Assembly (NCBI RefSeq): GCF_000422425.1 | Contig: NZ_AULT01000028.1 | Location: 1 to 64,000 of the forward strand | DNA length: 64,000 nucleotides | From: Oceanospirillum beijerinckii DSM 7166 | GTDB lineage: Bacteria; Pseudomonadota; Gammaproteobacteria; Pseudomonadales; Halomonadaceae | Reading direction: 5' to 3' | Part shown: positions 31,087 through 54,775 of the stretch, piece by piece | How positions within the stretch are numbered: position 1 is the stretch's first letter | Layout: every line of letters starts with the position of its first letter | Notes under the pieces: generated by a model | Seen by the model: only the letters and a program-made list of their open reading frames with translations | Told to the model about the DNA's origin: nothing | Database searches by the model: none | Position numbers and translations under genes: made by a program

Positions 31087-32376
31087 CTAAATCAGGTCCG
31101 AGAAAGGCTGAATCATCACCTTCTCACCCGCCCGAATGCCCTGTTGTTCATCAGGAATCTCAATCAAACAGTTGGCCTCAACCATGGAGCGCAAAATACC
31201 AGAGCCCTGACTTCCGGTTGTCCGCACCACAAGCTGACCACTGGCATCCACGGAAAAAATACCGCGATGAAAATCAGTACGCCCCTGACGGCTGCGCATC
31301 GTTTCCTGGGCAAGTGCAGGAATAGGAGTCAGTTGCCAACGGCTCTCACCGGCTAACTTACGCAATGCAGGCTGCGCCAGTTGCAAAAAAGTCACCATCA
31401 CTGCGACGGGATTCCCCGGCAAACCAAAAAACAGTGCTTTTTGCTCATCTTTACCCAAGCGGCCAAAAGCAAAAGGTCTACCGGGGCGAATATTTAAACG
31501 CCAAAAACCGATCTCCCCCACCTGGGCCAATGCTGATTTGATGTAATCTGCATCACCAACGGAAACACCACCGGAAGAGATCACTACATCATGATTTTCT
31601 GCCGCTTTAGACAGGGTATTAACCAAACTGGTTTCGTCATCCTGAATAATGCCCAAATCGGTAATATCGCATTGCAAGCCATTTAGCAGTCCTTGCAGAG
31701 TAAAACGATTGGTATCATAAATGCTGTTTTTTGGCAGAGGCTGCCCCCGCGCGACCACCTCATCACCAGTGGAAAACAAGGCAACCTTAAGTGGGCGTAT
31801 CACTTTGACTTCACTGAACCCCAGAGAAGCTAACAAGCCCTGATGCTGAGCAAAAATGCGTGTACCCTTACTCAGCGCTAAACTGCCTTGAGCTAAATCT
31901 TCACCAGCCTGACGAATATTATCATTCAACGCTACTGCATCGGGGCGCTGCAGCTTGATAAAACCCTCTGCAACATTAACAAACTCTTTCATCACAACAG
32001 TATTTGCACCAGAAGGTAAAGGCGCACCTGTTGTGATCATCACCGCCTCACCCTCGGCCAGCTCAGCGTCAAAACCATGTCCAGCTAAAGCTTGCCCCAC
32101 CAGTTTGTATTCACTGGGATAGGGCAGGCTTATCTCATTACCCAGGCTTGGTTTACGATTGGGTAGGTGAATCGCAAAACCGTCCATCGCTGAATTGGTC
32201 TGGGCCGGTACATTTACCGGTGAAATAATATCTTCTGCCAGGACTTTACCGACCAGCTGTTCAATCGAACAAAACTGATGTTCAGTAATAGGCTGCATCT
32301 CATCAAGCAAGGCCTGTTTTCCCTGCTCAACGCTCATCTGTGCCGGAGCATCAAAACAACTGATGGATTGATTCAT
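31087..32376 (-). CDS. moeA: Molybdopterin molybdenumtransferase MoeA
   Basis: The 429-residue protein shows MoeA features: the N-terminal QTNSAMDGFAI segment, VMITTGAPLPSGANTVVMKE, the substrate motif SSGGVSVGDADY and FGLPGNPVAVMVTF. It inserts molybdate into adenylylated molybdopterin. The start overlaps mobB by 4 bp, so the two are translationally coupled and should be read from the candidate sigma54 promoter at 33074-33088. The downstream moaCD gene begins 119 bp later with no clear terminator, so the entire mobB-moeA-moaCD-moaE-moaA block may be one transcript. Confidence 0.95.
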   Translation of the reverse strand: MNQSISCFDAPAQMSVEQGKQALLDEMQPITEHQFCSIEQLVGKVLAEDIISPVNVPAQTNSAMDGFAIHLPNRKPSLGNEISLPYPSEYKLVGQALAGHGFDAELAEGEAVMITTGAPLPSGANTVVMKEFVNVAEGFIKLQRPDAVALNDNIRQAGEDLAQGSLALSKGTRIFAQHQGLLASLGFSEVKVIRPLKVALFSTGDEVVARGQPLPKNSIYDTNRFTLQGLLNGLQCDITDLGIIQDDETSLVNTLSKAAENHDVVISSGGVSVGDADYIKSALAQVGEIGFWRLNIRPGRPFAFGRLGKDEQKALFFGLPGNPVAVMVTFLQLAQPALRKLAGESRWQLTPIPALAQETMRSRQGRTDFHRGIFSVDASGQLVVRTTGSQGSGILRSMVEANCLIEIPDEQQGIRAGEKVMIQPFSDLI

Positions 32377-32963
32377 AGCTCTGCTCCAGAGGCATTTGAA
32401 CCGGCTGCCTGCTTACCCGTCGCTAACAGCTGCTTTTGGCGTTCAACTTCAGTACAGACAAAATCAGCCAGCTCAGTAATATTGTTCAGATCCAAGTGGG
32501 GCAGTTCAGGCTTAACACTGCTCACTTTCTCGATATCATCGGTCGCAATAGCGATAATATTTGGATCACTCAGCGCTAACACCTCTTTTTCCATCACAGG
32601 GCGATGCAGCTCAATCTTATTGAAAGGCACATGCTTAAACCCCTCGACCAATACACAATCCAGTTTATGCAGTGGTAGATAGTCGATCATCTCCGTCAAA
32701 GAGGGATCTTTTACCTCATCAAAATCCATCATCATCGCCATACGCTGGCTGGAAGTGATCAGCATAGGTGCAGCCCCAGACTTACGTAGCTCATAGCTGT
32801 CCTTGCCTGGCTTATCGGTCTCAAAGTTGTGGTGGGCGTGTTTCACCACTGCCACCCGAATTCCCTGCTGTTTCAGCACTGGTAACAGCTGTTTCAGCAA
32901 TGTTGTTTTACCTGTACCACTAAAGGCGGCAAAACCTAAAACAGGTAATGGAAACTCTGGCAT
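32373..32963 (-). CDS. mobB: Molybdopterin-guanine dinucleotide biosynthesis adaptor MobB
   Basis: The 196-residue GTP-binding protein has the P-loop GFAAFSGTGKTTLLKQLLP, the VAVVKHAHHNFETDKPGKDSY motif and DCVLVEGFKHV. MobB assists MobA in adding GMP to molybdopterin. It is first in the operon, coupled to moeA by a 4-bp overlap. Upstream lie a candidate sigma54 promoter and a GGGTCA-AAA-TGTCCT site, listed separately. The C-terminal 20 residues (ATGKQAAGSNASGAEL) are a low-complexity tail. Confidence 0.93.
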   Translation of the reverse strand: MPEFPLPVLGFAAFSGTGKTTLLKQLLPVLKQQGIRVAVVKHAHHNFETDKPGKDSYELRKSGAAPMLITSSQRMAMMMDFDEVKDPSLTEMIDYLPLHKLDCVLVEGFKHVPFNKIELHRPVMEKEVLALSDPNIIAIATDDIEKVSSVKPELPHLDLNNITELADFVCTEVERQKQLLATGKQAAGSNASGAEL

Positions 32964-33073
32964 TAATCTCTACCTTTCTTCTTATACGTCATTTTGCTCA
33001 GCATAGCGCCGAAGCTATTGGGCTCACAATATGAACAAGATGTCATAATTTATTTCTTATGGTTATTAAAATG

Positions 33074-33088
33074 GCAAAGAGTGTACCA
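33074..33088 (-). promoter_or_regulatory. Candidate sigma54 (-24/-12) promoter of mobB-moeA
   Basis: The minus strand reads TGGTACACTCTTTGC. It has GG and GC exactly 10 nt apart and TTGC at -12; the sigma54 consensus is TGGCAC-N5-TTGC. Transcription would start near 33062, about 100 nt before the mobB ATG. A matching element stands before tupA, and an NtrC-type activator gene lies 4 kb away, which supports the call. Confidence 0.6.
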
Positions 33089-33166
33089 AAGCAGACCTGA
33101 ACAAAGTCAAAAAAGCTCTAAAATGTTCCATAAACACTGAGGCACCGTTCGATTTTGGGTCGCCAC

Positions 33167-33182
33167 GGGTCAAAATGTCCTA
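33167..33182. promoter_or_regulatory. Candidate activator site upstream of mobB-moeA
   Basis: GGGTCAAAATGTCCTA matches the perfect palindrome GGGACAAAATGTCCC found upstream of fdhD at 13 of 15 positions, and on the minus strand (TAGGACATTTTGACCC) resembles the site upstream of tupA. It lies about 105-120 bp upstream of the predicted start, the usual place for an NtrC-type enhancer. A further half-site GGGACA occurs at 33197-33202. The remaining bases of this 552-bp gap show no gene. Confidence 0.5.
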
Positions 33183-33515
33183 AGAAAAAATATTTCGGGA
33201 CACATTGGGGCTATTCAGAAACGCCACCAACAAGAAATGAGATTACGGTAAAAAGATTTGGCTTCTGTAAAACAGATAAGAAGGTATCAAAACGTAAAGA
33301 AGACAGGCTAAAAGTGGAAAAGAGCAACGAGTGCGGCTCTAGCAGAGAAGCTGGCACTCAAACAGCCCAATGCAGTATGAAAGCATCCAAAAAACTAAGG
33401 CCCAATCAAGTGCCACTTCTGATTAAGCCTTAGCATGAATCTATTTTAACTCTCTAGCTCAATTTCAGCGGCTAATAAGCTCGTTATGAGTAGATGTTAG
33501 CTGTTATTTCGCCAA

Positions 33516-34109
33516 TTACGCACATAACGGCGATTCATTCTGCTTCAAATCGACCGGGGTATTAAGGTTCATAAAAACCTCTTGACCATGTTCAAATGGC
33601 ACTACAATCATTTTGTGCTGCATAAACCAGCGATCAATTTTTCGCTTACCCTCTTCCAGCCATACTTCCAAGCTTGGCAACAGTGATTTATGCAATAAAG
33701 CAATTACCGGCTGCAAACGTTCGCCATCATGAGCAACCGCAATATCAGCACCGCTCTCTTTTGCTGCATTGAGGAGTTGTTCTGCCAAGTCCGAAGGTAA
33801 CGCAGGTGTATCGCAGGGCACAAATAAAACCCAGTCATTTGCAGAGTGTTTGAGACCCGTTAACATACCCATCAGAGGACCGTGAAACCCCTCAACACCA
33901 TCTTCAATAACAGGATGACCTAAGGCCTGATAACGCTCAAAACTACGATTCGCATTAATGATGATATGATCAACTTGGGGGTCAATCTGTTCCAGAACAT
34001 GCTGAATCATAGGCTTTTCACGAAAAATAACCCAGCCTTTGTCCTGCCCCCCCATTCTCTGACCCCGACCTCCGGCCAGAACTACTGCAGTAACCCTTTG
34101 CTTTGTCAT
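33516..34109 (-). CDS. mobA: Molybdenum cofactor guanylyltransferase MobA
   Basis: The 197-residue protein carries the nucleotidyltransferase signature AVVLAGGRGQRMGGQDKGW, the NANRS motif and the metal-binding VPCDTPALP segment. MobA transfers GMP from GTP to Mo-molybdopterin, producing the MGD cofactor of DMSO-reductase-family enzymes such as formate dehydrogenase. It stands alone between mobB and tupC, with gaps of about 550 and 220 bp. A short hairpin lies just upstream. Its ribosome-binding site is weak. Confidence 0.93.
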   Translation of the reverse strand: MTKQRVTAVVLAGGRGQRMGGQDKGWVIFREKPMIQHVLEQIDPQVDHIIINANRSFERYQALGHPVIEDGVEGFHGPLMGMLTGLKHSANDWVLFVPCDTPALPSDLAEQLLNAAKESGADIAVAHDGERLQPVIALLHKSLLPSLEVWLEEGKRKIDRWFMQHKMIVVPFEHGQEVFMNLNTPVDLKQNESPLCA

Positions 34110-34134
34110 AATGATCTCGCTTGAAAGTTCTACT

Positions 34135-34153
34135 AACAGGCTGACAGCCTGTT
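34135..34153. repeat. Hairpin upstream of mobA
   Basis: AACAGGCT-GAC-AGCCTGTT is a perfect 8-bp stem with a 3-nt loop, 26 bp upstream of the mobA ATG. It has no T-run on either strand, so it may be an operator or a 5'-UTR structure. A weak copy of the TGTC-containing site (AAAAATGTCAT) is at 34211-34221. Confidence 0.3.
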
Positions 34154-34333
34154 AATCCACATAAAGTAGAAGATCCCTTCCCAGCTTATACCCAGTTATC
34201 GGAAAGAGGTAAAAATGTCATAAAATAACATCTTTATCTTTTCTTAATGAAAAGGCCATACGCACGTTGCACAGGGCTTTCTACCATTTTAGATATCTGC
34301 AACACTATTTATTCTAATCCGCTCAAAGCTCAA

Positions 34334-35035
34334 TCAAGCATAAAGCAGGCCATTCTCAATCTGCCATGCATGATTACAGAGAGAAGTAAGATCGCAATTT
34401 TGATGGGAGCTGAGCATAATATCAGTATTTTTTTCTAATAAATTCAATACAATATGCTTCATTAGGGTTACAGACTTATGATCCAGATTAGCTGCAGGTT
34501 CATCTAAGAGTAACACTCTGGGCTGAAGTAACCAAGCCCGTAAAAGGGCAAGCCTTTGCCTTTCACCACCAGAAAGAGTACTCGCATCTTGCTCCACTAA
34601 ATGAGTCAGCGCCGCCATCTCTAAGCCATGCTCCAGACGCTCCAGCGCCTGGGCCCGCCTTTTTCTTGGCAGATTATTCAAGACGAAATCAAGATTTTTC
34701 TGAACTGTACCAGCAAACAAATAAGGCGTTTGATGGAGGTAACAGATCTGTCCTCGCCCTCTGGCACGAAGCCAGCCTGTATTATGCCAGGGAAAGCTCA
34801 CAGCTCCCTGTTGAACACCTTCTAATCCCGCCATCAAGCGCATTAAAGTGGATTTACCAGTACCATTTTCTCCCTGTAACCATACCACTTGACCTTTAAG
34901 CCAGATCGCATCATCAATATCAAACAGCACTCGATCACGGTTCCAGGCATGCTTGAGACCTTTAATATGAGCAACAGCTGTCACCTTGAGTCGATTTTTC
35001 GGATCAGCCAACTCCAGGTTTAACTCACTTGTCAT
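34334..35035 (-). CDS. tupC: Tungstate ABC transporter ATP-binding protein TupC
   Basis: The 233-residue ATPase has Walker A (GENGTGKSTLM), signature LSGGERQRLALLRAWLLQP and Walker B (VLLLDEPAANLD). It powers oxyanion uptake with TupB and TupA. It follows tupB after 53 bp on the same strand. Assignment to tungstate, rather than molybdate or sulfate, rests mainly on the TupA partner. Confidence 0.88.
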   Translation of the reverse strand: MTSELNLELADPKNRLKVTAVAHIKGLKHAWNRDRVLFDIDDAIWLKGQVVWLQGENGTGKSTLMRLMAGLEGVQQGAVSFPWHNTGWLRARGRGQICYLHQTPYLFAGTVQKNLDFVLNNLPRKRRAQALERLEHGLEMAALTHLVEQDASTLSGGERQRLALLRAWLLQPRVLLLDEPAANLDHKSVTLMKHIVLNLLEKNTDIMLSSHQNCDLTSLCNHAWQIENGLLYA

Positions 35036-35088
35036 AACTTAGCCACCGCTCCTATATTACGCTTCTTTAACAACCTGACTGTCCTATG

Positions 35089-35805
35089 CTACCTATTTCT
35101 CAACTGGCCCCGCCCTCTGAGAAGTGCCATCCCAAGATTTAGCACCATAGCCAGCAGAAACAGCACCAGCCCCAGAGCAATCCCTTGAGCATACTCTCCT
35201 TTTAGAGTCTCCAGAGCAATCGCAGTGGTAATGTTTCGGGTATAATTCAAAATATTACCACCGACCATCATGGCACAGCCGACCTCAGCGATAATGCGGG
35301 CAAAAGCCGCAACCAAGCTGGCAATCAAGGCGTAACGCACTTCATGCATCAATACCCATAAACAGCGTAATGGATGACCACCCAACATGCGTGCCGTTTC
35401 CCAGGCCCGCTTATCCGCACTCTGAAAAGCGGTATGAGTCATAGATACCAGCAAAGGCAAACAAAGCAAGATCTGACCGATAATCATAGCGTCTTGCGTG
35501 AACAGCAGCCGCCAATCTCCTAAAGGCCCACTGCGAGAGAGCAGCATAAACAGAATCAACCCTACCACCACCGTCGGCACAGCCATCAATGTGTGCGTCA
35601 TTGAGAGCAGAAGCCAACGCCCTGGAAAACGCCAATAGGCCAATACAAAACCGATCAAGGTTGCGGGAATTGCTGCTGTCATAAGCGCCAGCAGAGAGAC
35701 ACGAAACGAAACACCGATGATCGTCCAGAGCTTCTCATCCCCAGAGACCAGCAGCTCAAGCGCATGTATAAAGGTTTCTGTCAAACTAGCCAAAAAAAAT
35801 TCCAA
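35089..35805 (-). CDS. tupB: Tungstate ABC transporter permease TupB
   Basis: The 238-residue membrane protein has five to six hydrophobic segments and the ABC permease EAA-type loop (ETARMLGGHPLRCLWVLMHEVRYAL). Homologues begin shortly before an LLVSGDEKLW-like segment. No ATG exists in frame near that point, so the start must be non-canonical; the TTG at 35805 is the best candidate. No good ribosome-binding site precedes it. The long gap and weak hairpin after tupA, plus this start, should make permease synthesis much lower than that of the binding protein. Confidence 0.86.
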   Translation of the reverse strand: MEFFLASLTETFIHALELLVSGDEKLWTIIGVSFRVSLLALMTAAIPATLIGFVLAYWRFPGRWLLLSMTHTLMAVPTVVVGLILFMLLSRSGPLGDWRLLFTQDAMIIGQILLCLPLLVSMTHTAFQSADKRAWETARMLGGHPLRCLWVLMHEVRYALIASLVAAFARIIAEVGCAMMVGGNILNYTRNITTAIALETLKGEYAQGIALGLVLFLLAMVLNLGMALLRGRGQLRNR

Positions 35806-36033
35806 ACAAATCGAAGAACGGCTCTGACGTTAATACCGGCAACAAACAGCTCAATTAACGACCTGTATTAATCATTACCGTATCAATGTACTCAAGTGAA
35901 TTGCAATCAAGCCATTACTAAAACAAACAAATCTCAGACACTATTGCCATTAAACCAAATCTGGCCAAAATCAATAGCACTGAGATCGTTTAAACACTTC
36001 AAAATCCTCACTTATTAGCCATCACTTAATAAC

Positions 36034-36062
36034 AAAAAAAGACCTTCTGTTATTCAATAACA
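36034..36062 (-). terminator. Weak attenuator-like hairpin between tupA and tupB
   Basis: On the minus strand TGTTATT-G-AATAACA is followed after a few bases by a seven-T run. The stem is A/T-rich, so it would act at most as a partial terminator that lowers tupBC expression relative to tupA. The rest of the 267-bp gap shows nothing recognisable. Confidence 0.4.
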
Positions 36063-36072
36063 AGCCAATAAA

Positions 36073-36888
36073 TTAGTCTTTAGCATTAGCTACAAACAGC
36101 TGCTCACCATGCAGGCGGAAGTTGTTAATTTTATCTTGGGTTTTATCTGACACTAACCACTTACTTAAAGTTTCTGCGCCTTTAGTATTAAGATCTTGAT
36201 GACGTTTAGGGTTTACGATAATAACCTGATAAGGATTAAAAAGGCGTGCATCGCCTTCAGATACAATTTCCAGATCTACTTTAGTTTTATAGGCCAGCCA
36301 AGTACCACGATCAGTCAGCGTATACCCCTGCAGTTCAGAGCTAATCTGTAGCACCTTACCCATACCTTGACCCACTTCACGGTAGCCATCAAATGGCAGT
36401 TTTACCCCGGTTTGCTTCCAAAGATTCAACTCTTTCTTGTGGGTACCTGAGTCATCACCGCGGGACACAAACAACGCGTTATTCGCAGAAACCTTACCCA
36501 GCGCCTGACTGATATCCTGAGAACCCTTGACACCTGCAGGATCACTCTTCGGGCCAACTAAGACAAAGTCGTTGTACATCAAACCACGAGGATTAACACC
36601 ATATCCCTCGTTAACGAATTTCTCTTCTGCTTTTGGCGCATGAGTCATAACAACATCCACATCACCATCACGCCCCATACGCAGCGCTTTACCGGTACCG
36701 ACAGCAATAACCTGAATTGTCGCACCGTGCTCTTTCTCAAAGTCAGGGAGCAAGTAATCCAATAAACCTGAATTATAAGTACTGGTTGTTGTTGCCAAAC
36801 GTACGATACCTAAATCTTCCGCCATCGCTTGAAACGATGCACTGGCAGTAATAACCGCTGCTGCGAGTAGACGTGTAAACTTTCTCAT
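36073..36888 (-). CDS. tupA: Tungstate-binding periplasmic protein TupA
   Basis: The 271-residue protein has a signal peptide (cleavage near QAMA) and then LATTTSTYNSGLLDYLLPDF; the TTTST element is the tungstate-specific signature of TupA. Other landmarks are GTGKALRMGRDGDVDVVMTHAP and FVSRGDDSGTHKKEL. TupA binds tungstate with very high affinity and prefers it over molybdate. It is transcribed divergently from the regulator at 37413. A sigma54-type promoter and two GGACA-containing sites lie upstream, so its expression is probably activated by that regulator. Tungstate import fits a W-containing formate dehydrogenase elsewhere in the genome. Confidence 0.93.
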   Translation of the reverse strand: MRKFTRLLAAAVITASASFQAMAEDLGIVRLATTTSTYNSGLLDYLLPDFEKEHGATIQVIAVGTGKALRMGRDGDVDVVMTHAPKAEEKFVNEGYGVNPRGLMYNDFVLVGPKSDPAGVKGSQDISQALGKVSANNALFVSRGDDSGTHKKELNLWKQTGVKLPFDGYREVGQGMGKVLQISSELQGYTLTDRGTWLAYKTKVDLEIVSEGDARLFNPYQVIIVNPKRHQDLNTKGAETLSKWLVSDKTQDKINNFRLHGEQLFVANAKD

Positions 36889-36953
36889 TTTTTATTAAAC
36901 CCCTCTAATATGCCCCAAAGTGGATAATTTGTTATCATGGCTACCCCACAAGA

Positions 36954-36968
36954 GCAAAATGGATGCCA
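36954..36968 (-). promoter_or_regulatory. Candidate sigma54 (-24/-12) promoter of tupABC
   Basis: The minus strand reads TGGCATCCATTTTGC followed by TC: GG and GC exactly 10 nt apart, with TGGCA and TTTGC as in the consensus. The predicted start is near 36942, about 54 nt before the tupA ATG. This is the best -24/-12 match I found in the window. Confidence 0.65.
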
Positions 36969-37052
36969 TAGTGGGAAAGCAGCGCTATAACGTTGTTGAA
37001 TTAAAATTAAATAGCCCCATTTACCGTGACAGCATTTTTCCGGGGGCTTCAA

Positions 37053-37068
37053 TAGGACAAAATGACAC
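37053..37068. promoter_or_regulatory. Candidate activator site upstream of tupA
   Basis: TAGGACAAAATGACAC matches GGGACAAAATGTCCC at 12 of 15 positions and lies about 111-126 bp upstream of the predicted tupA transcription start. A half-site in the opposite orientation, TGTCCTA, follows at 37094-37100. The spacing is nearly the same as at mobB. The gap between tupA and the regulator (about 520 bp) otherwise shows no gene. Confidence 0.5.
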
Positions 37069-37412
37069 AACCCATCAACACCCTGTATCTTTATGTCCTA
37101 TCAATAAAAATTAAAGTGGAGAGAACAAAACTGGTTAAACTAATGTGGAAAAGAGTTTAAGCACCTGAACACAAGTAGTAGCCCAACAACATACGGTGTT
37201 CATTCATTGCTATAGTATAGACAGCAGAACATCAGAGTATTTTTGCTCAAACACAAATTTAAAAACCGAGCAAACAACTGGAATTGCTAGAAATAAACCG
37301 ACAAGCTCTTAAACCGATGTACCAATATTTTCCGAGCGCCTCTTGGCAAATATAAGACATTTATCCAGCCAATCTGCTTAAAGTAACTAGCTTGATAACG
37401 AATAAAAAAATT

Positions 37413-38840
37413 ATGACCTCAAAGGAAACCTCCCATCAGAGCGACACACAGACACTGTCTCTGTGCAATCTGCCCGCAGTGTCTGTACTGATTGTCGATG
37501 ACGAACCCGGTATGCGCAATTTTCTGGTCAAAGCGTTAAGTAAGCGCTTTGCCCTGGTTGAGTCCGCCGACAGCATTGAAACCGCTGAAGAGATTCGTAA
37601 ACGCTGCCACTTTGACCTGCTGATCTGTGATATCAAACTGCCAGGCCGTTCAGGTATCGAGTGGCATGAGGCCATTGATGAAGGAGAAAAGCGCAGCGAT
37701 ATAATTTTTATGACCGCCTACGCCGATCTGGAAACGGCTATAGAAGCCCTACGCGCCGGTGCCAGCGATTTTATCCTGAAGCCTTTCCGTCTGGAGCAGA
37801 TGACTACGGCCATTGATCGATGCCTCGAGCGTCGCTTGCTAGCCAGAGAAAACTTTGTCCTGCGCCGGGAGGTCAACTCTGTCTATAGCTCCGGCAGCGC
37901 CATGTTGGGTGAAAGCCAGGCTATTCAGGAAGTTGATAGCATCATCCGACGTGTAGCACCCACTCCTTCTGCCGTCTTGATAGAGGGTGAATCCGGCACG
38001 GGTAAAGAGCTTGCCGCTCGTGCATTACATCAGTACAGCGGGCGCACCGGAGCCTTTGTTCCCATTAACTGTGGAGCCATTGCCCCGGATATTCTGGAAA
38101 GTGAGCTGTTTGGTCATACCAAGGGAGCCTTTACCGGTGCACAAAAGGCCCGCGAAGGCCTGTTTACCTTTGCTAACGGTGGCACTCTGTTTCTGGATGA
38201 GATTGGCGAGATGCCTTTAGGCATGCAAGCCAAGTTATTACGGGTACTGGAGCTGAAAGCGGTACGTCCCGTAGGTGGCGAACAGGAAGTCAGTATAGAT
38301 GTGCGTATTGTCGCAGCAACCAACCGCAATCTGGAAGAGGAAGTCAAAGAAGGTCGCTTCAGGGAAGACCTTTACTACCGTCTCAATGCACTCACGCTAA
38401 CGCTGCCACCGCTGCGTGATCGTCGTGAAGACGTTCCAACACTGGTACATAATTTCTCACGCAAACTCTCCCGAGAGCTGGGCCTGCCTCCCGTACCATT
38501 TGCCCATGAAGACCTGGAAGCCATGATGGCTTATGGCTGGCCAGGCAATATTCGTGAACTGAAGAATTTTGTCGAACGCTGCATCCTTTTGGGCCGCCTG
38601 CCCATCGACAGTTTTCCGGAACAGAATAAAGTAGCCATGGAATCCCCCCCTAACCAGCCTTCTGGTCGAGGCTTCCCAAGCGAATGGCCGCTGGAAGAGG
38701 TTGAAAAACATCATATTTTACAGGTCCTGGCAGACCACCAAGGCAATAAATCAGCAGCAGCCCGCCAGTTAGGCATTTCTCGAAAAACTTTGGATCGAAA
38801 ATTGCAGGCTTGGGATGAAACCAGTCAATCAGATTCCTAA
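37413..38840 (+). CDS. NtrC-family sigma54-dependent response regulator
   Basis: The 475-residue protein has a receiver domain with phospho-acceptor D73 ([10 protein letters not shown]), an AAA+ domain with Walker A GESGTGKE (192-199) and the sigma54-contact loop GAFTGA (238-243), and a Fis-type DNA-binding C-terminus ([20 protein letters not shown]). It should activate -24/-12 promoters when phosphorylated by the sensor kinase encoded 149 bp downstream. I chose the ATG at 37413; a TTG seven codons upstream is possible, and neither has a clear ribosome-binding site. It is divergent from tupA and near mob and fdhD genes, whose upstream regions share a palindromic site, so a role in Mo/W or formate metabolism is inferred. 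Confidence 0.9.
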
Positions 38841-38989
38841 GAGGCTTTTGTTGTTAGCACACTCACTGTTGGCACACGATCAGTAACACACAAGTTATTT
38901 GCTCACTGGCCCAGTTACAGCTGATCATTACGATCACTCAACACATTAACGACAAGATGTAAGGGAATTTTTGCATAACCCGGAGCACC

Positions 38990-41092
38990 ATGCGTACATC
39001 GATCCGCCTTAAAATACTGGGGTTAACACTAACCCCAGTCGTCCTTATTCTGGTCACCTTAATCGGTATGACTACATACTGGGCCAGTACCTACTCTGCA
39101 GACCAGCTGTATCGAAAGGTACAAGCAGATCTATCGGTAGCTCAGGGCATACTTAATATTCTGGAAGAAAAAGATCTCAGCACTCTTAATCAACTCAGTC
39201 AAAGCAGACGCTTAAAAGAATCGCTGAAAAATAGCGACAGTATGCGTATCGCCCAACAGCTATATGACTACAAGAACCTGCATAAAGTAGACTTTATTCG
39301 CCTTTTACCAGTAGAAGGTATGGGGGATCGACTCCTTAAAGAAAATAGCCTGGCTAAAATTGCTGCTGAAGTGATGCAAGGTCAGGCTCAGGTGGGGTTA
39401 CAACTGATCGATCAGGACGAGATCGCCATGATTGAGCCCGACCTTATTCCAACGATGCAGATCAAGCTTCAGGTGACACCACGAGCTCTGCCGGTAAGGA
39501 AATCTCATGAAACACGGGGTATGTTTATTCGCGCCCTGCAGCCAGTGGTCAACCTGCAAGGCGAAGTCATCGCTGTACTGGATACGGGTCGGTTACTGAA
39601 TCGTAATAACGACTTCGTGGATCAGATTCGAGACTTGGTTTATCGCCCAGGCACTTTGCCCGCAGGTGGTATTGGTACCGTCACCCTGTTTCTGGATGAT
39701 GTACGCATCAGTACTAACGTGCCTCAGGAACCCGGCATTCTTGAACAAGGTGGTTTGACGCGGGCCCTGGGGACCAAGGTGTCTTATGATGTGCATCGAA
39801 AAGTATTGATAAAGGGTGAAGGCTGGGTGGACCGTGCCTTTGTAGTTAATGATTGGTACATCTCTGCCTACAAGCCCATTGAAGACCTGTCTGGTAAGCG
39901 CATCGGTATGCTATATACCGGATTTCTGGAGCAGCCTTACACCAGTATCTACCACCAAAACCTGATTGAGTTGATCGGCTCAATTGCAGTCGTAACCTTT
40001 ATATCCTCTATTCTGGTGCTGCGCAGTGCAGGACTGGTCATTCAACCCGTACGCCGCATCCATAGCGTTGTAAAAGCGGTAAAAGCTGGACAGCGTAAAC
40101 GCATCGGCATGATGGAAAATCATGACGAACTGAGCGAGTTAGCCGAACAGTTTGATACTATGCTGGACCTTCTTGAAGAGCGTAATCGCCAGATTCAGCA
40201 AGCGGCCGAATTCCTCGAGCAAAAGGTGCAGGAGCGCACTCAATCCCTGCAAGATAAAACCCGGGAGCTGGAAGAACACATCCGCCTGCTACAAGCGACA
40301 CGGGCGCAGCTCGTCACCAAGGAAAAGCTCGCAGCTCTGGGAGAGCTGACCGCAGGTATCGCTCATGAAATCAACAATCCGGCTGCGGTCATCCTGGGCA
40401 ATATGGATCTGCTCCAGGCAATGCTGGGTGACGATGCAAAACCCGTGGAAGAAGAGATTGAACTGATTATTCAGCAAGTTTATCGTATTCGCGCATTGAT
40501 CAACAATCTTCTGCAATATAGCCGCCCTGGTGAATACACCCAGTCCACGGCACCGCTGGATATCAATCAAGTGGCCCAGGATATGCAGGTTTTAGTACGT
40601 CATACCTTAGAGAAGAAAGCACTTCATCTGGAACTGACTCTTAACGCTAAAACTTTGATCGAAGGCAACACTCAGCAACTGCAACAAGTACTGGTGAATC
40701 TGGTAATGAATGCAGCCAATGCGAGCACAGGCCCCGGTCATATTTGGCTAAGAACCTCTAATTGGTATGAAGCAGGCCAACTACGTGGCGTTTTGATCGA
40801 AGTAGAAGACAAAGGCAACGGTATTGATGCAGATACCCTACCTCATATCTTTGATCCGTTCTTTACCACTCGCGATAATGGCACTGGCCTTGGCCTATCC
40901 GTTTGCTACGGCATTATTCGTCGCTATGGTGGTGATATTCAGGTGGTCTCAACACTGGGTAAAGGCACTACCTTTACAGTATATTTATTATCGGAAGCTA
41001 AGTTTACTAACTCCGATCAGTCCACCACGGAACAACTGTTAGCCTCTCTGTCCGAGGTACAAAGAAGCCAACAGAAAACAAATAACGGATAA
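38990..41092 (+). CDS. Membrane sensor histidine kinase, partner of the NtrC-family regulator
   Basis: The 700-residue kinase has a first membrane helix at about 9-30, a large periplasmic region of about 290 residues that looks like a double Cache domain, a second helix near 325-350, a HAMP segment, a coiled coil (about 385-440), the H-box GELTAGIAHEINNP with H459, and a catalytic ATPase domain with FDPFFTTRDNGTGLGLSVC. The ligand is unknown; its Cache region suggests an organic acid or similar small molecule in the periplasm. A GGAG ribosome-binding site precedes the ATG. A terminator follows. Confidence 0.9.
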   Translation: MRTSIRLKILGLTLTPVVLILVTLIGMTTYWASTYSADQLYRKVQADLSVAQGILNILEEKDLSTLNQLSQSRRLKESLKNSDSMRIAQQLYDYKNLHKVDFIRLLPVEGMGDRLLKENSLAKIAAEVMQGQAQVGLQLIDQDEIAMIEPDLIPTMQIKLQVTPRALPVRKSHETRGMFIRALQPVVNLQGEVIAVLDTGRLLNRNNDFVDQIRDLVYRPGTLPAGGIGTVTLFLDDVRISTNVPQEPGILEQGGLTRALGTKVSYDVHRKVLIKGEGWVDRAFVVNDWYISAYKPIEDLSGKRIGMLYTGFLEQPYTSIYHQNLIELIGSIAVVTFISSILVLRSAGLVIQPVRRIHSVVKAVKAGQRKRIGMMENHDELSELAEQFDTMLDLLEERNRQIQQAAEFLEQKVQERTQSLQDKTRELEEHIRLLQATRAQLVTKEKLAALGELTAGIAHEINNPAAVILGNMDLLQAMLGDDAKPVEEEIELIIQQVYRIRALINNLLQYSRPGEYTQSTAPLDINQVAQDMQVLVRHTLEKKALHLELTLNAKTLIEGNTQQLQQVLVNLVMNAANASTGPGHIWLRTSNWYEAGQLRGVLIEVEDKGNGIDADTLPHIFDPFFTTRDNGTGLGLSVCYGIIRRYGGDIQVVSTLGKGTTFTVYLLSEAKFTNSDQSTTEQLLASLSEVQRSQQKTNNG

Positions 41093-41148
41093 CGCACTCG
41101 AATACCATCAGATGACAACACTGTTGCTTGTCTAAACTCTATCCCCTG

Positions 41149-41172
41149 AAAGCCGACTTTGAGTCGGCTTTT
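41149..41172 (+). terminator. Rho-independent terminator after the sensor kinase
   Basis: AAAGCCGACT-TTG-AGTCGGCTTT is a perfect 10-bp hairpin with a 3-nt loop ending in TTTT. It lies 56 bp after the kinase stop. Confidence 0.85.
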
Positions 41173-41179
41173 CTATCAA

Positions 41180-41312
41180 GTGGGCGGCCGGGTGTTAAAA
41201 TATTTTAGCGACCAGATTTCTCAATGTATACGCAAAACCGATACTTTTGGCCGCTGGGGCGGATACCGCCATGTATGACGCGAAGAGAAATGATCGCAAT
41301 CAGGTATACGTG
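41180..41312 (+). pseudogene. Remnant of a GGDEF (diguanylate cyclase) gene with an internal deletion
   Basis: One frame reads VGGRVLKYFSDQISQCIRKT and then DTFGRWGG, the part of a GGDEF domain that leads into the GG(D/E)EF motif. At 41258-41264 the coding sense jumps to another frame that reads ADTAMYDAKRNDRNQVYV, the characteristic C-terminal end of a GGDEF domain. The catalytic motif and roughly 70 residues normally between these parts are missing. The junction falls on the bases GGCGGA, which both sides would share. The fragment has no start and no catalytic site, so it is a pseudogene. Confidence 0.75.
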
Positions 41313-41382
41313 CCACGCATAGCCACTTTTTATCCGACCATTTTTGCCCGCCCAACGAAAGATTATGCAGAAGTAGAGCCGT

Positions 41383-42291
41383 TTAATCAGCCCCATTCCA
41401 AACCAACTTACCGCAGTCCGACATATCGTACCCACCCAGTGAACGCGCTAATTCTAAGCCTTCACTACCCTGCATATAATCAAACAACTGCTGGAACAAA
41501 CCACGGAAATAAACACTGCGGGGTACAACCAGATCAAAGGCTTCTTCACACACCGGCACAAACTCCAAACCGTATTCCCGTGCAGCACTTAAGCTACCAG
41601 GGCCAATATCTGCTTCACCTCGGCAGATCATGGAAGCCATCTCTCGCTCACTAAAAGCTTCAGCAGAAACATTCAGTTCATCCAGTTGAGTTTGGAAGCC
41701 AGACAACCACTCCTGCAGAAAACGCTGTGACCCGGCCCCCTCCTGACGTACAGCCCAACGCAGACGATTAATAGCGATATTGTCCGGATCTTTATAATCA
41801 TAATGATCCGAGCGGATAATTAGACCCTGGGTACGACGAAAGGCATGCACCAGCACCCACTGACGATGGTGAGAAAACTGACGGATCAAACCGGGATGAC
41901 GCAGATGGCTTTCTTCAGCTCTGCCCCAGTGAATAGCCGCCACATCCGCATGCCCCTGAGACAACAGCCCCAACCCCATACGGCTGCCTGTCACGCTATA
42001 GCTATACAGCGCTTTATTACCGACAACATTGGGCAAACGCAACATAATTGCCTGTAAAAAGGGGTCATCACTGCCCGTTAACAACAGACGGTCCGCCATT
42101 AAACCACTGTGGCAGGATTCCAGTAACCAACGATCCACCAGCTTTTTGGGGAACAGCCACTTACCCGTGACCTTAGTGGCTGGGATTTGGCCTTCGCTGG
42201 CCAGAGCATAAACTTTTTTCTCGTTTAAATGCAGGTATTCAGCCACCTGTTTAACGTTCATAAACAGGGTATCAGCAATCATTTCAGTCAT
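41383..42291 (-). CDS. Helix-turn-helix protein with a periplasmic-binding-protein-like ligand domain
   Basis: The 302-residue protein starts with an excisionase-type helix-turn-helix (MNVKQVAEYLHLNEKKVYALASEG and GKWLFPKKLVDRWL). A domain resembling PBP-like (PF12727-type) oxyanion/molybdate-binding regions follows, with LLTGSDDPFLQAIMLRL, DVAAIHWG and GEADIGPGSLSAAREYGLEF. Such proteins act as one-component regulators sensing molybdate, tungstate or a related ligand. The ATG at 42291 overlaps the end of fdhD by 8 bp, so it is translationally coupled to fdhD; the frame is open further upstream inside fdhD but without a reason to start there. Ligand and targets are inferred from context. Confidence 0.83.
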   Translation of the reverse strand: MTEMIADTLFMNVKQVAEYLHLNEKKVYALASEGQIPATKVTGKWLFPKKLVDRWLLESCHSGLMADRLLLTGSDDPFLQAIMLRLPNVVGNKALYSYSVTGSRMGLGLLSQGHADVAAIHWGRAEESHLRHPGLIRQFSHHRQWVLVHAFRRTQGLIIRSDHYDYKDPDNIAINRLRWAVRQEGAGSQRFLQEWLSGFQTQLDELNVSAEAFSEREMASMICRGEADIGPGSLSAAREYGLEFVPVCEEAFDLVVPRSVYFRGLFQQLFDYMQGSEGLELARSLGGYDMSDCGKLVWNGAD

Positions 42292-43246
42292 GAACAGCTT
42301 CTTTCTTCTTGGTGTTTTTAATCGTTTTAATTTTCTCTTTATCAAGGCTGGCTTCGGGTTTCGCATCCCAGACAAAACGCCTTTCCCCGTGGTAGAGCAA
42401 GAAATGTTTACCCTTGGCACGGGCAATCAGCATAATGCCCAGTTGCTTGGCCAGTGCCAGCCCCATAGCGGTCACACCCGAGCGGGATAACAAGATTGAG
42501 ATCCCCATCCTGGCCACTTTAATCACCATCTCAGAGGTTAAACGTCCCGTGGTATAGAACACCAACTGTTCACCTTTAAGATCCTGCAACCACTGTTTAC
42601 CGGCTAATGTATCGACCGCATTATGACGACCAACATCTTCCGAAAAGGCCAATACGCTGGCTTGAATGCCCGTGTCAGTCTTATCCAGACTGCATAGAGC
42701 ACAGCCGTGGACCGCACCGGCTGAACGGTAGGTTTCGTTATAGGCATTTAATGCTGATAGCAACTGATATACAGCGCTTTGCTGCATGTTTTGCTGAGGC
42801 AGATCTATCTGACTCAGGTTATCCATCATGGCACCGTACTGAGTCCCCTGACCACAGCCTGTAGTAACGGTTTTATGAGCCAGCTTCTTTTCTAACGCGT
42901 CATGATCTGTTTCAGCGACCACCACAGCAGCTTCTACTTCCCAATCCACCTGAATTGCCCGCAACTCTGACAGATCATTGATCATGCCCTGGTTTCTGAG
43001 ATAACCCAGCACCAGCGCTTCGGGCTCAGCCCCCAGAGTCATCAGGGTGACAATCTCACGTTTATTCAGATAAAGGGTTAATGGCCGCTCACCGGCAATT
43101 GCCACATCGCGCAACTGACCATACTCATCCCATACCTGAGCAGCATCGGTTAGCTCAACCTGAGCATCACTGATCTCAAAGTTCTTCTTCTCTGGATTAA
43201 TGCTCATATCAGAGAGGTCTGCATCAGGTGTCACTTGCTGCCCCAT
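42284..43246 (-). CDS. fdhD: Formate dehydrogenase sulfurtransferase FdhD, with a single cysteine in the CxxC loop
   Basis: The protein (320 residues from ATG 43246) contains FdhD landmarks: RPLTLYLNKREIVTLMTLG, CALCSLDKTD and AFSEDVGRHNAVDTLAGKQWL. FdhD carries sulfur from IscS to the Mo/W centre of formate dehydrogenase and is required for its activity. The sulfur-relay loop, CxxC (Cys121 and Cys124) in E. coli, reads C131-G-Q-G here, so the second cysteine is missing. The ATG at 43246 has AAGGA upstream; a TTG six codons earlier is less likely. A weak sigma54-like promoter precedes it, and the DNA-binding protein gene is coupled downstream. No formate dehydrogenase genes are in the window. 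Confidence 0.9.
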   Translation of the reverse strand: MGQQVTPDADLSDMSINPEKKNFEISDAQVELTDAAQVWDEYGQLRDVAIAGERPLTLYLNKREIVTLMTLGAEPEALVLGYLRNQGMINDLSELRAIQVDWEVEAAVVVAETDHDALEKKLAHKTVTTGCGQGTQYGAMMDNLSQIDLPQQNMQQSAVYQLLSALNAYNETYRSAGAVHGCALCSLDKTDTGIQASVLAFSEDVGRHNAVDTLAGKQWLQDLKGEQLVFYTTGRLTSEMVIKVARMGISILLSRSGVTAMGLALAKQLGIMLIARAKGKHFLLYHGERRFVWDAKPEASLDKEKIKTIKNTKKKEAVHD

Positions 43247-43366
43247 AGGAATATCCTTACACAATTAACATTTTTACGACAAATAAAGTCTCTAATGACG
43301 ATAGAGAATATCTGAAGCCATCAAGGAGCGCAGTCAGCACTGTATGTCGTAGATAAAAGAGTTAGA

Positions 43367-43381
43367 GCAATAACCATTCCC
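43367..43381 (-). promoter_or_regulatory. Weak sigma54-like promoter upstream of fdhD
   Basis: The minus strand reads GGGAATGGTTATTGC followed by TC. GG and GC are 10 nt apart and the -12 half (TTGCT) is perfect, but the -24 half is TTGGGA rather than TGGCA. It lies about 120 bp before the fdhD ATG. Accept only with the enhancer-like site upstream in mind. Confidence 0.35.
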
Positions 43382-43517
43382 AAAGTGGAATTTGACGAGA
43401 AAAAGCTCGATTAAGAGTTGATAAAGCAAAGAAACACGGTATTGGCGTAGAAATCCGTTAAAGTCTAAAAAATTCCGTAGAAAGGAAAAAGAGCATCAGA
43501 AAGAGAAAAAAACGGAC

Positions 43518-43555
43518 AAAAAAGACCAGCTTGGGACAAAATGTCCCAGACTGGT
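43518..43555 (-). terminator. Terminator of the AhpC/TSA gene containing the perfect GGGACA-AAA-TGTCCC palindrome
   Basis: On the minus strand, arms ACCAG/CTGGT and TGGGACA/TGTCCCA form a stem with a 3-nt loop and a two-base internal mismatch, followed by a C and six T's. It lies 43 bp beyond the stop of the gene ending at 43598. Its core, positions 43532-43548, is a perfect palindrome TGGGACAAAATGTCCCA that resembles the candidate activator sites at mobB and tupA, so it may serve fdhD as an enhancer in DNA and the upstream gene as a terminator in RNA. Confidence 0.75.
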
Positions 43556-43597
43556 TTCTAAGGAGAGGTTAAGCGGTTAAATTTGACTCATAACGGC

Positions 43598-44128
43598 CTA
43601 AACAAGTTCACCACGAGCCGGATAATCGTTCTTCAGTACGAAATCAATTGCACCAACAATTTCTTTAAAGTGCGGACGAGCAAATGGCATGGCGCTCACA
43701 TTTCCCCAATACAGAGTACCGTCAGGACGTACCAGATAAACCGCAGGCTCACTGAACTCAGCAGGCTCTTCAATACCGATAGAAGTTAAACCACGACCCG
43801 CAGAACGATACAGCCCCCAGGCATCAGCCTGCTCTTTACTTAGACCGAAGCCGACTGGAATGTTATCCAGCCCCCACTCCTCAAGAGCTTGCGCTGCACG
43901 CTCCTTAGAATCACTACTCAGCGCCAGAATACTGACACCACGCTCAGCGAGATCACCTGCCAGACGATTCAACTCTGTCAGGTAGGTACGACAGATTGGA
44001 CAGTGAAGACCGCGATAGAACACTAGCAGAGTAAAGTTTTCAGCCTGGCTATCCGCCAGAGACCAACTAACGTTCAGGGTTTCAATATCCAGCGCAGGTA
44101 CAACTTGTCGAGGTATTAAAGGTTGCAT
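43598..44128 (-). CDS. AhpC/TSA-family peroxiredoxin-like protein
   Basis: The 176-residue thioredoxin-fold protein has FYRGLHCPICRTYLTEL, where the CPIC sits at the position of the peroxidatic cysteine, and ILALSSDSKERA. It is predicted to reduce peroxides or act as a thiol oxidoreductase. The CxxC form resembles the DUF899/AhpC-TSA-like group rather than typical 2-Cys AhpC. An AGGAG ribosome-binding site precedes the ATG. It is monocistronic, with a terminator downstream. Whether it belongs functionally with the H2O2-generating LodA-like enzyme is not indicated by position. Confidence 0.82.
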   Translation of the reverse strand: MQPLIPRQVVPALDIETLNVSWSLADSQAENFTLLVFYRGLHCPICRTYLTELNRLAGDLAERGVSILALSSDSKERAAQALEEWGLDNIPVGFGLSKEQADAWGLYRSAGRGLTSIGIEEPAEFSEPAVYLVRPDGTLYWGNVSAMPFARPHFKEIVGAIDFVLKNDYPARGELV

Positions 44129-46291: not shown

Positions 46292-46410
46292 CGAATATAT
46301 TTGACGCCTCCAGACTGACATTATTTCTCCACCGAAACCGGCTTAACGAGTGATAGAAAAATATTACTCGCTGAGTGATAGCCCTTCATACGCTTAGGAT
46401 GATAAAAATA

Positions 46411-53242: not shown

Positions 53243-54775
53243 TTAATTGGGTTGATCGATACCGTAACGTTCGATTTTGCTGCGCAGACCAACACGGGAA
53301 AGGCCCAGCTCATTGGCGGCACGGCTTTTGTTCCAGCGAAAACGCAATAGGGTTTCTTTTACGATGCGGGCTTCCAGGGCTTCGATACGGTCTTTTAGCG
53401 TGCCTTCCATACCGCCGAGCATGGTTAACTCACGGGCCTGTTGCTCATCTTCCGGTGCGGCACGCAATACATGAGGCGATAGCAACTCCGCCCCCAGTTG
53501 ATCTTCTTTCGCCATCACCAACATACGGCGCACTTCATTTTCCAACTCACGTACATTGCCGGGCCAGTGATAGGCCTGCATACAGGCAAGGGCGGAATCG
53601 GTAAAACCCTGCACAGGCTTGGCAAAGTCCTGCTCTGCCTTTTGCAGGATTTTCTCGGCTAAAACAGAGATATCATTGCCACGATCTCTTAACGGCGGTA
53701 GTGTCAAGGTAACTTGGGCAAGACGATAGTAGAGATCCTGACGGAAACGCCCTGCCTGAACCTCTTCCTGCAGATCCCGGTTGGTTGAAGCAATCACACG
53801 CACATTCACTTTGCGGCGGCGATGACTACCGACAGGACGCACTTCCCGCTCCTGCAGTACACGCAACAGTTTGACTTGGAAAGCAGGCGTGATTTCACCA
53901 ATCTCATCCAGAAAGATAGTGCCGCCATCCGCTTGCTCAAACAGACCAACATGATCGGCTATTGCCCCAGTAAACGCGCCTTTTTTATGGCCAAACAATT
54001 CACTGGCCAGCAACTCATCAGGCATGGCACCACAGTTTTCCACCACAAAGGGTTGATCAGAACGATGACTGTTATAGTGCAAGGCACGAGCAAACAGCTC
54101 TTTACCAGTACCGGACTCTCCTGTTACCAACACGGCGATATCATAAGGGGCAATCTGAGCCACTTCATCGCACAAAGCCTCCAGTGGGCTCTGCTCACCA
54201 CGACAGATACCCTCCAGTTGAAAGTCAGCTTTCAGCTTTTGTTTATGGCGTAGAATTTTGCCCTCGGCCACATCTGCTGTTAGCCGCATCTCATTAGCCA
54301 GCAGCTCATTTTGTTGCTGTAGTTGCCACAATTTTGCCGCGTTATTAACCGCCAACAGCAACTGATCCGGGTGCCAGGGTTTAGTGAGATATTGATAGAT
54401 TCCGGCTTCATTGATACCGGAGATAATATCTTCAGAATCCGTATAACCGGATAGCATCAGACGGATTGTTTCCGGCCAGCGTTGACGGACTTGAGTCAAA
54501 AACTCCACGCCGGTCATTCCCGGCATACGCTGGTCACAAACGATCACCTGAATCGCACACAGATCCTGATCACTGCACTGCTCCAGCAGGGCCAAAGCAT
54601 CGGTGGCGCTGGAAGCGGTGAGCACATCAAAGGACTCATCCAGAATACGCTCCAGGGTTTCCAAAGAGCGAATCTCATCATCGACCACCAGCACCTTAGG
54701 GCGCGTTTTTATAGAGACGGTTTCGCTGCTACTTTCCTCAGACAGCGAACCGAGAGGGGTTGAAAAGTGGTTCAT
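53243..54775 (-). CDS. HoxA/HupR-like NtrC-family hydrogenase regulator
   Basis: The 510-residue protein has a receiver domain ([18 protein letters not shown]; acceptor in [11 protein letters not shown]), an AAA+ domain with Walker A GESGTGKE (K225) and the sigma54 loop GAFTGA, and a Fis-type C-terminus ([20 protein letters not shown]). It resembles HoxA/HupR, which switch on hydrogenase operons from -24/-12 promoters. It sits between hypB and hypC, where hypF stands in rhizobial clusters. No cognate kinase (HoxJ/HupT) or H2-sensing hydrogenase is in the window. The ribosome-binding site is weak. Confidence 0.9.

Follow-up and report, generated by a model that had tools for sequence, protein, structure and literature searches.

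The stretch of Oceanospirillum beijerinckii DSM 7166 DNA analyzed here (positions 1 to 64,000 of contig NZ_AULT01000028.1; referred to as the window) carries, between tupA-type and fdhD genes, the genes for an NtrC-type response regulator and a membrane-bound histidine kinase. Our in silico analysis suggests, with a probability that we put at roughly three in four, that this two-component system senses extracellular formate and controls the genes for formate dehydrogenase (FDH), for tungstate/molybdate uptake and for the assembly of the enzyme's cofactor. In the proposed circuit, the kinase would sense formate outside the cytoplasmic membrane via its sCache_3_3 module and phosphorylate the regulator, which would bind a 13-bp site, GGWCA-N3-TGWCC, whose copies are often paired two to four helical turns apart and mostly located some 60-200 bp above sigma54 promoters. 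The regulator is predicted to activate tupABC-mobA-mobB-moeA, fdhD with its neighbor, and an FDH operon for an iron-sulfur (Fe-S) protein, a TorD-like chaperone and FdhABC; in relatives, the FDH-operon targets would also include DUF3305-DUF3306 and moaA. When formate appears, the cell would step up the enzyme itself together with sulfur insertion, metal uptake and the assembly of the cofactor. Activation as the direction of control and binding of the site by the regulator are steps that we infer; the evidence itself, all of it read from sequence, consists of the conserved site, the sigma54 elements and their fixed distance from it in the FDH operon promoter, co-occurrence with the kinase, and the family and residues of the sensor domain. 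A first-pass annotation of the window had already proposed one sigma54 circuit for tungstate uptake, molybdenum/tungsten (Mo/W) cofactor synthesis and FdhD, under the regulator encoded between tupA and fdhD; this core is supported, and two of the three tests suggested with it were passed.

The NtrC-type regulator with its GAFTGA motif and the Cache sensor kinase claimed in that annotation are both present, and domain searches assign them the parts of an NtrC-type sigma54-dependent two-component system. Residues 203-323 of the kinase correspond to PF17202 sCache_3_3 (98.7 bits), while its HAMP-like stretch, at 24.1 bits, is slightly short of the 25-bit cut-off. The regulator possesses a receiver domain and gave no match to a GAF domain at E 0.001. 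The host genome (5.3 Mb on 99 contigs) contains rpoN, found as one match to the sigma54 family.

All motif strings quoted in the first-pass annotation were found in the window at the places given there. Motifs of this kind are no more frequent in the window than expected by chance: the dyad with up to three mismatches was found 18 times, with 20.7 expected from shuffles, and the -24/-12 element with up to two mismatches 44 times, with 44.3 expected. The question is therefore settled by comparison across genomes, and it is only this comparison that raises the predicted sites above chance. In many of the 80 loci retrieved with the kinase, mostly from Gammaproteobacteria, tupABC-mobA-mobB-moeA is arranged divergently from the regulator-kinase pair, an order kept in Neptunomonas, Neptuniibacter, Marinobacterium, Sedimenticola, Thiodiazotropha, Thiothrix and metagenome-assembled genomes. 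Many of these loci also carry a gene for an HTH_17 and PBP_like regulator (HTH-PBP), fdhD and the FDH operon nearby; the set seen is incomplete in short loci and also in some of the longer ones.

Unbiased dyad discovery in 35 spacers between tupA and the regulator gene placed GACA-3-TGTC first (12/35), followed by GTCA-3-TGAC (8/35), the largest count in 100 shuffles being 6. We tabulated the core GWCA-N3-TGWC upstream of the genes of loci L055-L124, leaving out all rows in which a gene was matched only from deep inside the protein or near the end of a locus. The core was present upstream of tupA (25/35), the regulator gene (32/60, in the spacer shared with tupA), fdhD (16/38), DUF3305 (10/17), the Fe-S gene (8/18) and moaA (7/21), compared to counts of 0.2-1.4 in shuffles. 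It was rare before mobA (1/33), mobB (1/32), moeA (2/30) and torD (4/28) and was found upstream of none of the tupB (0/31), tupC (0/34) and fdhA (0/25) genes, with shuffles yielding 0.3-0.8 for both groups. Using a sigma54 matrix, with a cut-off of 13 for this tabulation and 12 for the comparison of tupA within the family described below, we detected strong elements upstream of tupA in 33/35 regions and of DUF3305 in 13/17; upstream of torD, a sigma54 element was present in 7/28. The conserved sites lie at enhancer distance from the -24/-12 elements of their targets, the arrangement of NtrC-type activators, with variable site-to-box distances at the tupA and DUF3305 promoters. Where sites in the spacers form pairs, 18 of the 24 pairs are 30-34 bp apart, and 30 bp is the commonest distance. 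The predicted recognition helix, SRKT[LIM][DE]RK, was found in 71/81 loci. A sigma54 promoter for the regulator gene itself was considered and rejected, a strong element being present in only 2/60 of its upstream regions.

For near matches to the palindrome on other contigs of the host genome, we took eight regions among the matches listed and read two of them (L016 and L017). The copy on contig 53 (L016) has perfect inner 13 bases and lies 228 bp above the gene of a 609-residue iron-sulfur protein that heads the FDH operon; whether FDH operons carry the site was one of the checks proposed for the window, and that of the host does. Behind DUF3305 and DUF3306, this operon encodes, in order, the Fe-S protein, the TorD-like chaperone, FdhA, FdhB and FdhC. 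FdhB passes the FDH3 beta model NF038355 (332.9 versus a cut-off of 240 bits) and FdhC the formate dehydrogenase gamma model TIGR01583 (178.8 versus 115.85 bits), and these two subunit models identify an FDH3-type respiratory formate dehydrogenase; FdhA stays below the cut-off of its best model, TIGR01591 for formate dehydrogenase alpha (488.8 versus 666 bits). The genome contains no second close FDH and one distant homologue at 32%. As to the other region read, AGGACAAAATGTCTC at positions 7550-7564 of L017 lies about 150 bp above a gene that resembles, by eye, malate:quinone oxidoreductase.

Across 42 upstream regions of the Fe-S gene (duplicate loci L135-L142 and, as before, genes matched only from deep inside the protein or near a locus end excluded, L143-L146 included), 27 contain the core, and every one of these has a GG-N10-GC box 82 or 83 bp downstream of it; the offsets next in frequency occur once each. 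Without L143-L146, the count is 23/23. All 27 come from the window's family and the named neighbors Neptunomonas, Neptuniibacter and Marinobacterium. Pairwise identity within the 23 promoters amounts to 0.83-0.92 in the core, 0.62-0.69 in the box and 0.42-0.47 in the spacer, and some of the boxes, such as GGGTATCTAACCTGCA, are too degenerate for the sigma54 matrix. Outside the family, the core is missing from the Fe-S genes of L071, L075, L087, L098, L101, L103, L105, L113, L116 and L124.

Comparison of genomes with and without the kinase links the site to the two-component system. The kinase was found in 34/201 genomes of the window's family. Four of them represent genus g20, none of which matches TupA or the Fe-S gene, and the two g20 loci inspected (L153 and L154) have a transporter-type kinase with no tup genes nearby. 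The other 30 have the tup-type kinase, and 30/30 match the FDH Fe-S gene (six of them, from genus g6, in its C-terminal part only) compared to 89/171 of the remaining genomes; TupA was matched in 121/201. We compared 29 of the 30 genomes with the tup-type kinase for tupA and 19 for the Fe-S gene, and took as kinase-less controls the first 20 genomes in list order, with L223 added for tupA. The core upstream of tupA was present in 22/29 regions with the kinase versus 0/21 without it (p 1.8e-8), the sigma54 element in 29/29 versus 2/21 (p 7e-12), and the core upstream of the Fe-S gene in 13/19 versus 1/20 (p 3.7e-5). L223 is a telling case: its TupA is 65% identical to that of the window, its genome lacks the kinase, and both the sigma54 element and the site are absent. 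The co-occurrence of motif and regulator that had been proposed as a check was borne out by these tupA data, together with the tallies from L055-L124.

The sensor domain of the kinase points to formate. When an alignment of 37 sensor domains (L122 excluded) was compared to the PDB sequences, only 8py1 (0.0011) and 8py0 (0.0075) fell below E 0.01; both entries are titled chemoreceptor sensor domains in complex with formate, and a literature search found no paper on 8PY0/8PY1. A predicted model of the sensor (pLDDT, the predicted local distance difference test, 89.6) matched 8py1 and 8py0 best by Z score (15.2 with 151 residues and 14.8 with 136 residues), with a root-mean-square deviation of 2.4 each. 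In the chemoreceptor PacF, changes at R142, T145 and T158, which form the pattern R-x2-T-x12-T, affect formate binding, according to a secondary account (PMC12501870). The Arg of this triad is present in 79/81 kinase loci and both Thr residues in 81/81, the latter figure being partly built in since the search pattern required TN and RA-GT. The second spacing of the triad is 13 residues in 70/81 loci and is lengthened by an insertion in 11, including that of the window, where it is 20. The kinases of L087 and L107 have Ser instead of the triad Arg and are natural variants. One sCache_3_3 receptor that has the residues reported for formate was assigned this ligand in a gut survey (PMC12415202). 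Homology to formate-bound structures and the Arg-Thr-Thr residues as in PacF independently support formate, guessed as the signal in the first-pass annotation, as the putative ligand.

We regard as unlikely the alternative that the same regulator, site and sigma54 circuit serve a sensor of some other signal or small acid, such as lactate, oxalate or pyruvate, FDH then being one output among several. The sensor of the kinase consists of two modules, the formate-type module being the second; the first (residues ~25-200, window 39062-39600) is CitA-like and might have a ligand of its own, which leaves room for such a signal. This CitA-like module carries conserved residues. A sister clade adds to this alternative: 11 kinases from Alphaproteobacteria and genus g20 (L125-L130, L132-L134, L153 and L154) fall on one side of a single branch with support 100, in a tree from which kinases that were short or contained stops were excluded. 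They neighbor an MFS transporter. For the two of these transporter proteins that we tested, the best NCBIfam model was that of an L-lactate transporter, and the oxalate/formate antiport family came second. The core is present in 9/11 of the transporter promoters; in five of these nine it is doubled, at a distance of 42 or 22 bp. A strong sigma54 element is present in several of the 11. The identity of this transporter widens the ligand question to small monocarboxylates. On the other hand, by sequence, the sensor has its nearest solved relatives among formate complexes and retains the formate triad, and the tup-type kinase is accompanied by FDH in 30/30 genomes of the family. Of the circuit as a whole, we favor, with some reserve, a picture with two branches: many Gammaproteobacteria would possess an undescribed formate-sensing sigma54 regulon in which extracellular formate switches on, in a single step, a tungstate or molybdate importer, cofactor assembly, sulfur insertion by FdhD and the FDH operon, and a sister branch, found in Alphaproteobacteria and in a single genus of the family of the window, would use the same site to control a transporter of a monocarboxylate or oxalate/formate family.

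The sister clade also bears on the question of which protein binds the dyad. It could be bound by the HTH-PBP regulator encoded beside fdhD, as a sensor of molybdate/tungstate, with the two-component system acting elsewhere, and the HTH-PBP gene was indeed matched in 12/12 kinase-bearing fdhD regions of two genera (L179-L190) and in 0/20 kinase-less ones. We consider this very improbable. In loci L125-L134, the core persists in the transporter promoters even though the HTH-PBP protein has no match, which ties the site to the NtrC-type regulator rather than to the HTH-PBP protein; moreover, the sites are often paired, and their spacing from sigma54 elements is that of enhancers. Against the C-terminal part of a model for a molybdopterin biosynthesis protein, the HTH-PBP protein gives a match that falls short of the cut-off, and it may be a molybdate/tungstate sensor that forms a second arm.

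Several of our results weigh against a formate-responsive regulon of this extent. In the whole-genome scan proposed in the first-pass annotation, the composite pattern in its GACA form gave 7 matches versus 8 in the reversed control and hence did not rise above it; the GTCA form gave 7 versus 1 in its control (individual matches not inspected). Given these results, we claim no further regulon members in this genome. No site is present within 400 bp of DUF3305 in the window's genome, and the one at -490 lacks the outer bases. Within the family, the core shows no significant difference between genomes with and without the kinase at DUF3305 (2/19 versus 0/20, p 0.23) or fdhD (2/16 versus 1/20, p 0.41). 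The exact core is missing in 7/29 kinase-bearing tupA regions and in 6/19 Fe-S regions. Of the 21 kinase-less TupA proteins, 20 are only about 38-45% identical, which makes them a distant control, and shared descent among the sequences causes p-values and shuffle comparisons to overstate. In the four Oceanospirillum genomes compared at fdhD, the window, L147 and L149 have a strong site and L151 a degraded one, and the -24/-12 element of fdhD is weak and stands at variable distance from the site. With regard to the ligand, double-Cache sensors reach Z 14.4, less than 1 behind 8py0/8py1 and by the rule of the tool a tie, and Foldseek puts two other Cache domains first, so that the fold alone does not name the ligand. 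An Arg-to-Ala variant of the formate receptor Atu0526 is reported to bind formate still while chemotaxis is lost (PMC8698456), and the conserved Arg is accordingly no proof of a formate ligand. The transporter of the sister clade, finally, fits the L-lactate model better than that of the oxalate/formate family.

The promoter of mobB belongs among these difficulties. The first-pass annotation had read it as a sigma54 promoter with an upstream site, of which the GG-N10-GC box is kept in 6/6 Oceanospirillum genomes; the upstream site is found only in the window species and is absent from the five other Oceanospirillum genomes. It is possible, if doubtful, that some promoters of the window, that of mobB in particular, are of the ordinary sigma70 type with chance motif matches and that the regulon consists of tupABC and FDH only. 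A possible -35 hexamer, TTGACY, about 17 bp above the -24-like box of mobB in 5/6 Oceanospirillum genomes (TTGATC in the sixth), would suit this alternative, as does the upstream site in 1/6. It is less easily reconciled with the fully kept box, with the weak partner of the window's mobB site exactly 30 bp off, the commonest pair distance, or with L081, L084 and L086, three loci without tupABC in which the site and a sigma54 element directly precede mobA or mobB. These three loci support the mob genes as members of the regulon, although the mobB promoter of the window is itself uncertain. The TTGACY block (window 33090-33140, minus strand) may represent an overlapping sigma70 promoter or the site of a further factor.

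The features of the locus are compiled in Table 1.

Table 1. Genes and predicted regulatory elements of the locus in the window
Feature	Position	Strand	Remarks
moeA	31087..32376	-	named from sequence; homologues in same order in relatives
mobB	32373..32963	-	domain search
mobB candidate sigma54 element TGGTACACTCTTTGCC	33073-33088	-	sigma70 reading also possible
mobB candidate upstream site GGGTCAAAATGTCCT	33167-33181	-	13-mer GGACATTTTGACC at 33168..33180
mobB weak second site CCCCAATGTGTCC	33198..33210	-	exactly 30 bp above mobB site
mobA	33516..34109	-	domain search
tupC-type ATPase	34334..35035	-	domain search
tupB-type permease	35089..35805	-	domain search
tupA-type substrate-binding protein	36073..36888	-	NF041772, 249 bits, below 400-bit cut-off
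tupA predicted sigma54 -24/-12 element TGGCATCCATTTTGCT	36953-36968	-	
tupA predicted upstream site AGGACAAAATGACAC	37054-37068	-	13-mer TGTCATTTTGTCC at 37055..37067; ~98 bp above -24 element
tupA second site, half-matching, GGACATAAAGATA	37086..37098	-	31 bp above first; read by eye
NtrC-type response regulator	37413..38840	+	receiver, Sigma54_activat with GAFTGA, Fis-type HTH with SRKTLDRK
Membrane histidine kinase	38990..41092	+	extracytoplasmic sensor, HAMP-like stretch, HisKA, HATPase_c
HTH_17 + PBP_like regulator (HTH-PBP)	41383..42291	-	start overlaps fdhD end by a few bases
fdhD (FdhD-NarQ family)	42284..43264	-	TTG start listed; ATG at 43246
fdhD weak -24/-12-like element GGGAATGGTTATTGCT	43366-43381	-	
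fdhD perfect palindromic site GGGACAAAATGTCCC	43533-43547		upstream of fdhD

By their kinase, the closest named relatives of the host are Oceanospirillum multiglobuliferum and O. linum. The score of the tupA product in Table 1 makes it homologous to TupA of the tungstate transporter TupABC, and its substrate may be tungstate or molybdate; because of this shortfall, and since ModA is also encoded in the host genome, tungsten rather than molybdenum in the enzyme is only inferred. A second NtrC-type regulator is encoded in the window (53264-54742, minus strand), with 37% identity to the regulator of the circuit and a few kb from the start of a DctP-type TRAP transporter at 46375.

In Escherichia coli, a formate regulon is governed by FhlA, a cytosolic activator of the one-component type that has a GAF sensor and lacks a receiver domain. 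The predicted circuit resembles this regulon in function and differs in build: it shares with the FhlA-sigma54 regulon the (predicted) formate signal, sigma54, an AAA+ activator and an output of FDH and accessory genes, whereas it relies on a membrane kinase and a response regulator that has a receiver and no detectable GAF domain, and what it is predicted to switch on is a respiratory FDH together with genes for metal uptake and the cofactor. DctB/DctD-type systems combine a Cache kinase and an NtrC-type regulator with sigma54 promoters that have upstream sites, and the system described here is built likewise; its sensor subfamily, site and target genes differ. Genes for tungstate/molybdate uptake and for the cofactor are also the targets of ModE, TunR and other Mo/W regulators, which sense the metal oxyanion, while the signal predicted here is the substrate of the enzyme. 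With the formate chemoreceptors (PacF; 8py0 and 8py1), the kinase shares the fold of the sensor module and the residues R-x2-T-x12-T, although here the module resides in a histidine kinase, behind a CitA-like module and beside a transcription regulator.

Sigma54 promoters for formate dehydrogenases have been predicted genome-wide before, for 32% of 176 members of one COG (PMC12316311). Unlike the present analysis, this prediction, as far as the accessible part of the paper goes, names neither a regulator nor a site or signal and makes no connection to tup/mob genes, and no words beginning with tungst or oceanospirill occur in its main text. A search of titles and abstract openings, with subscription papers mostly outside its coverage, found no paper that describes this regulator, site and gene set.

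If correct, our reading would provide the control logic of the respiratory FDH operon that comprises DUF3305, DUF3306 and a TorD-like chaperone, and would explain why genes for metal uptake and cofactor synthesis adjoin that of an NtrC-type regulator in many genomes. It would also link a recently described family of formate-binding domains to transcription. This putative circuit lends itself to direct tests through the predicted site, the Arg-Thr-Thr pattern and the 82-83 bp geometry, in marine laboratory strains that pose no hazard.

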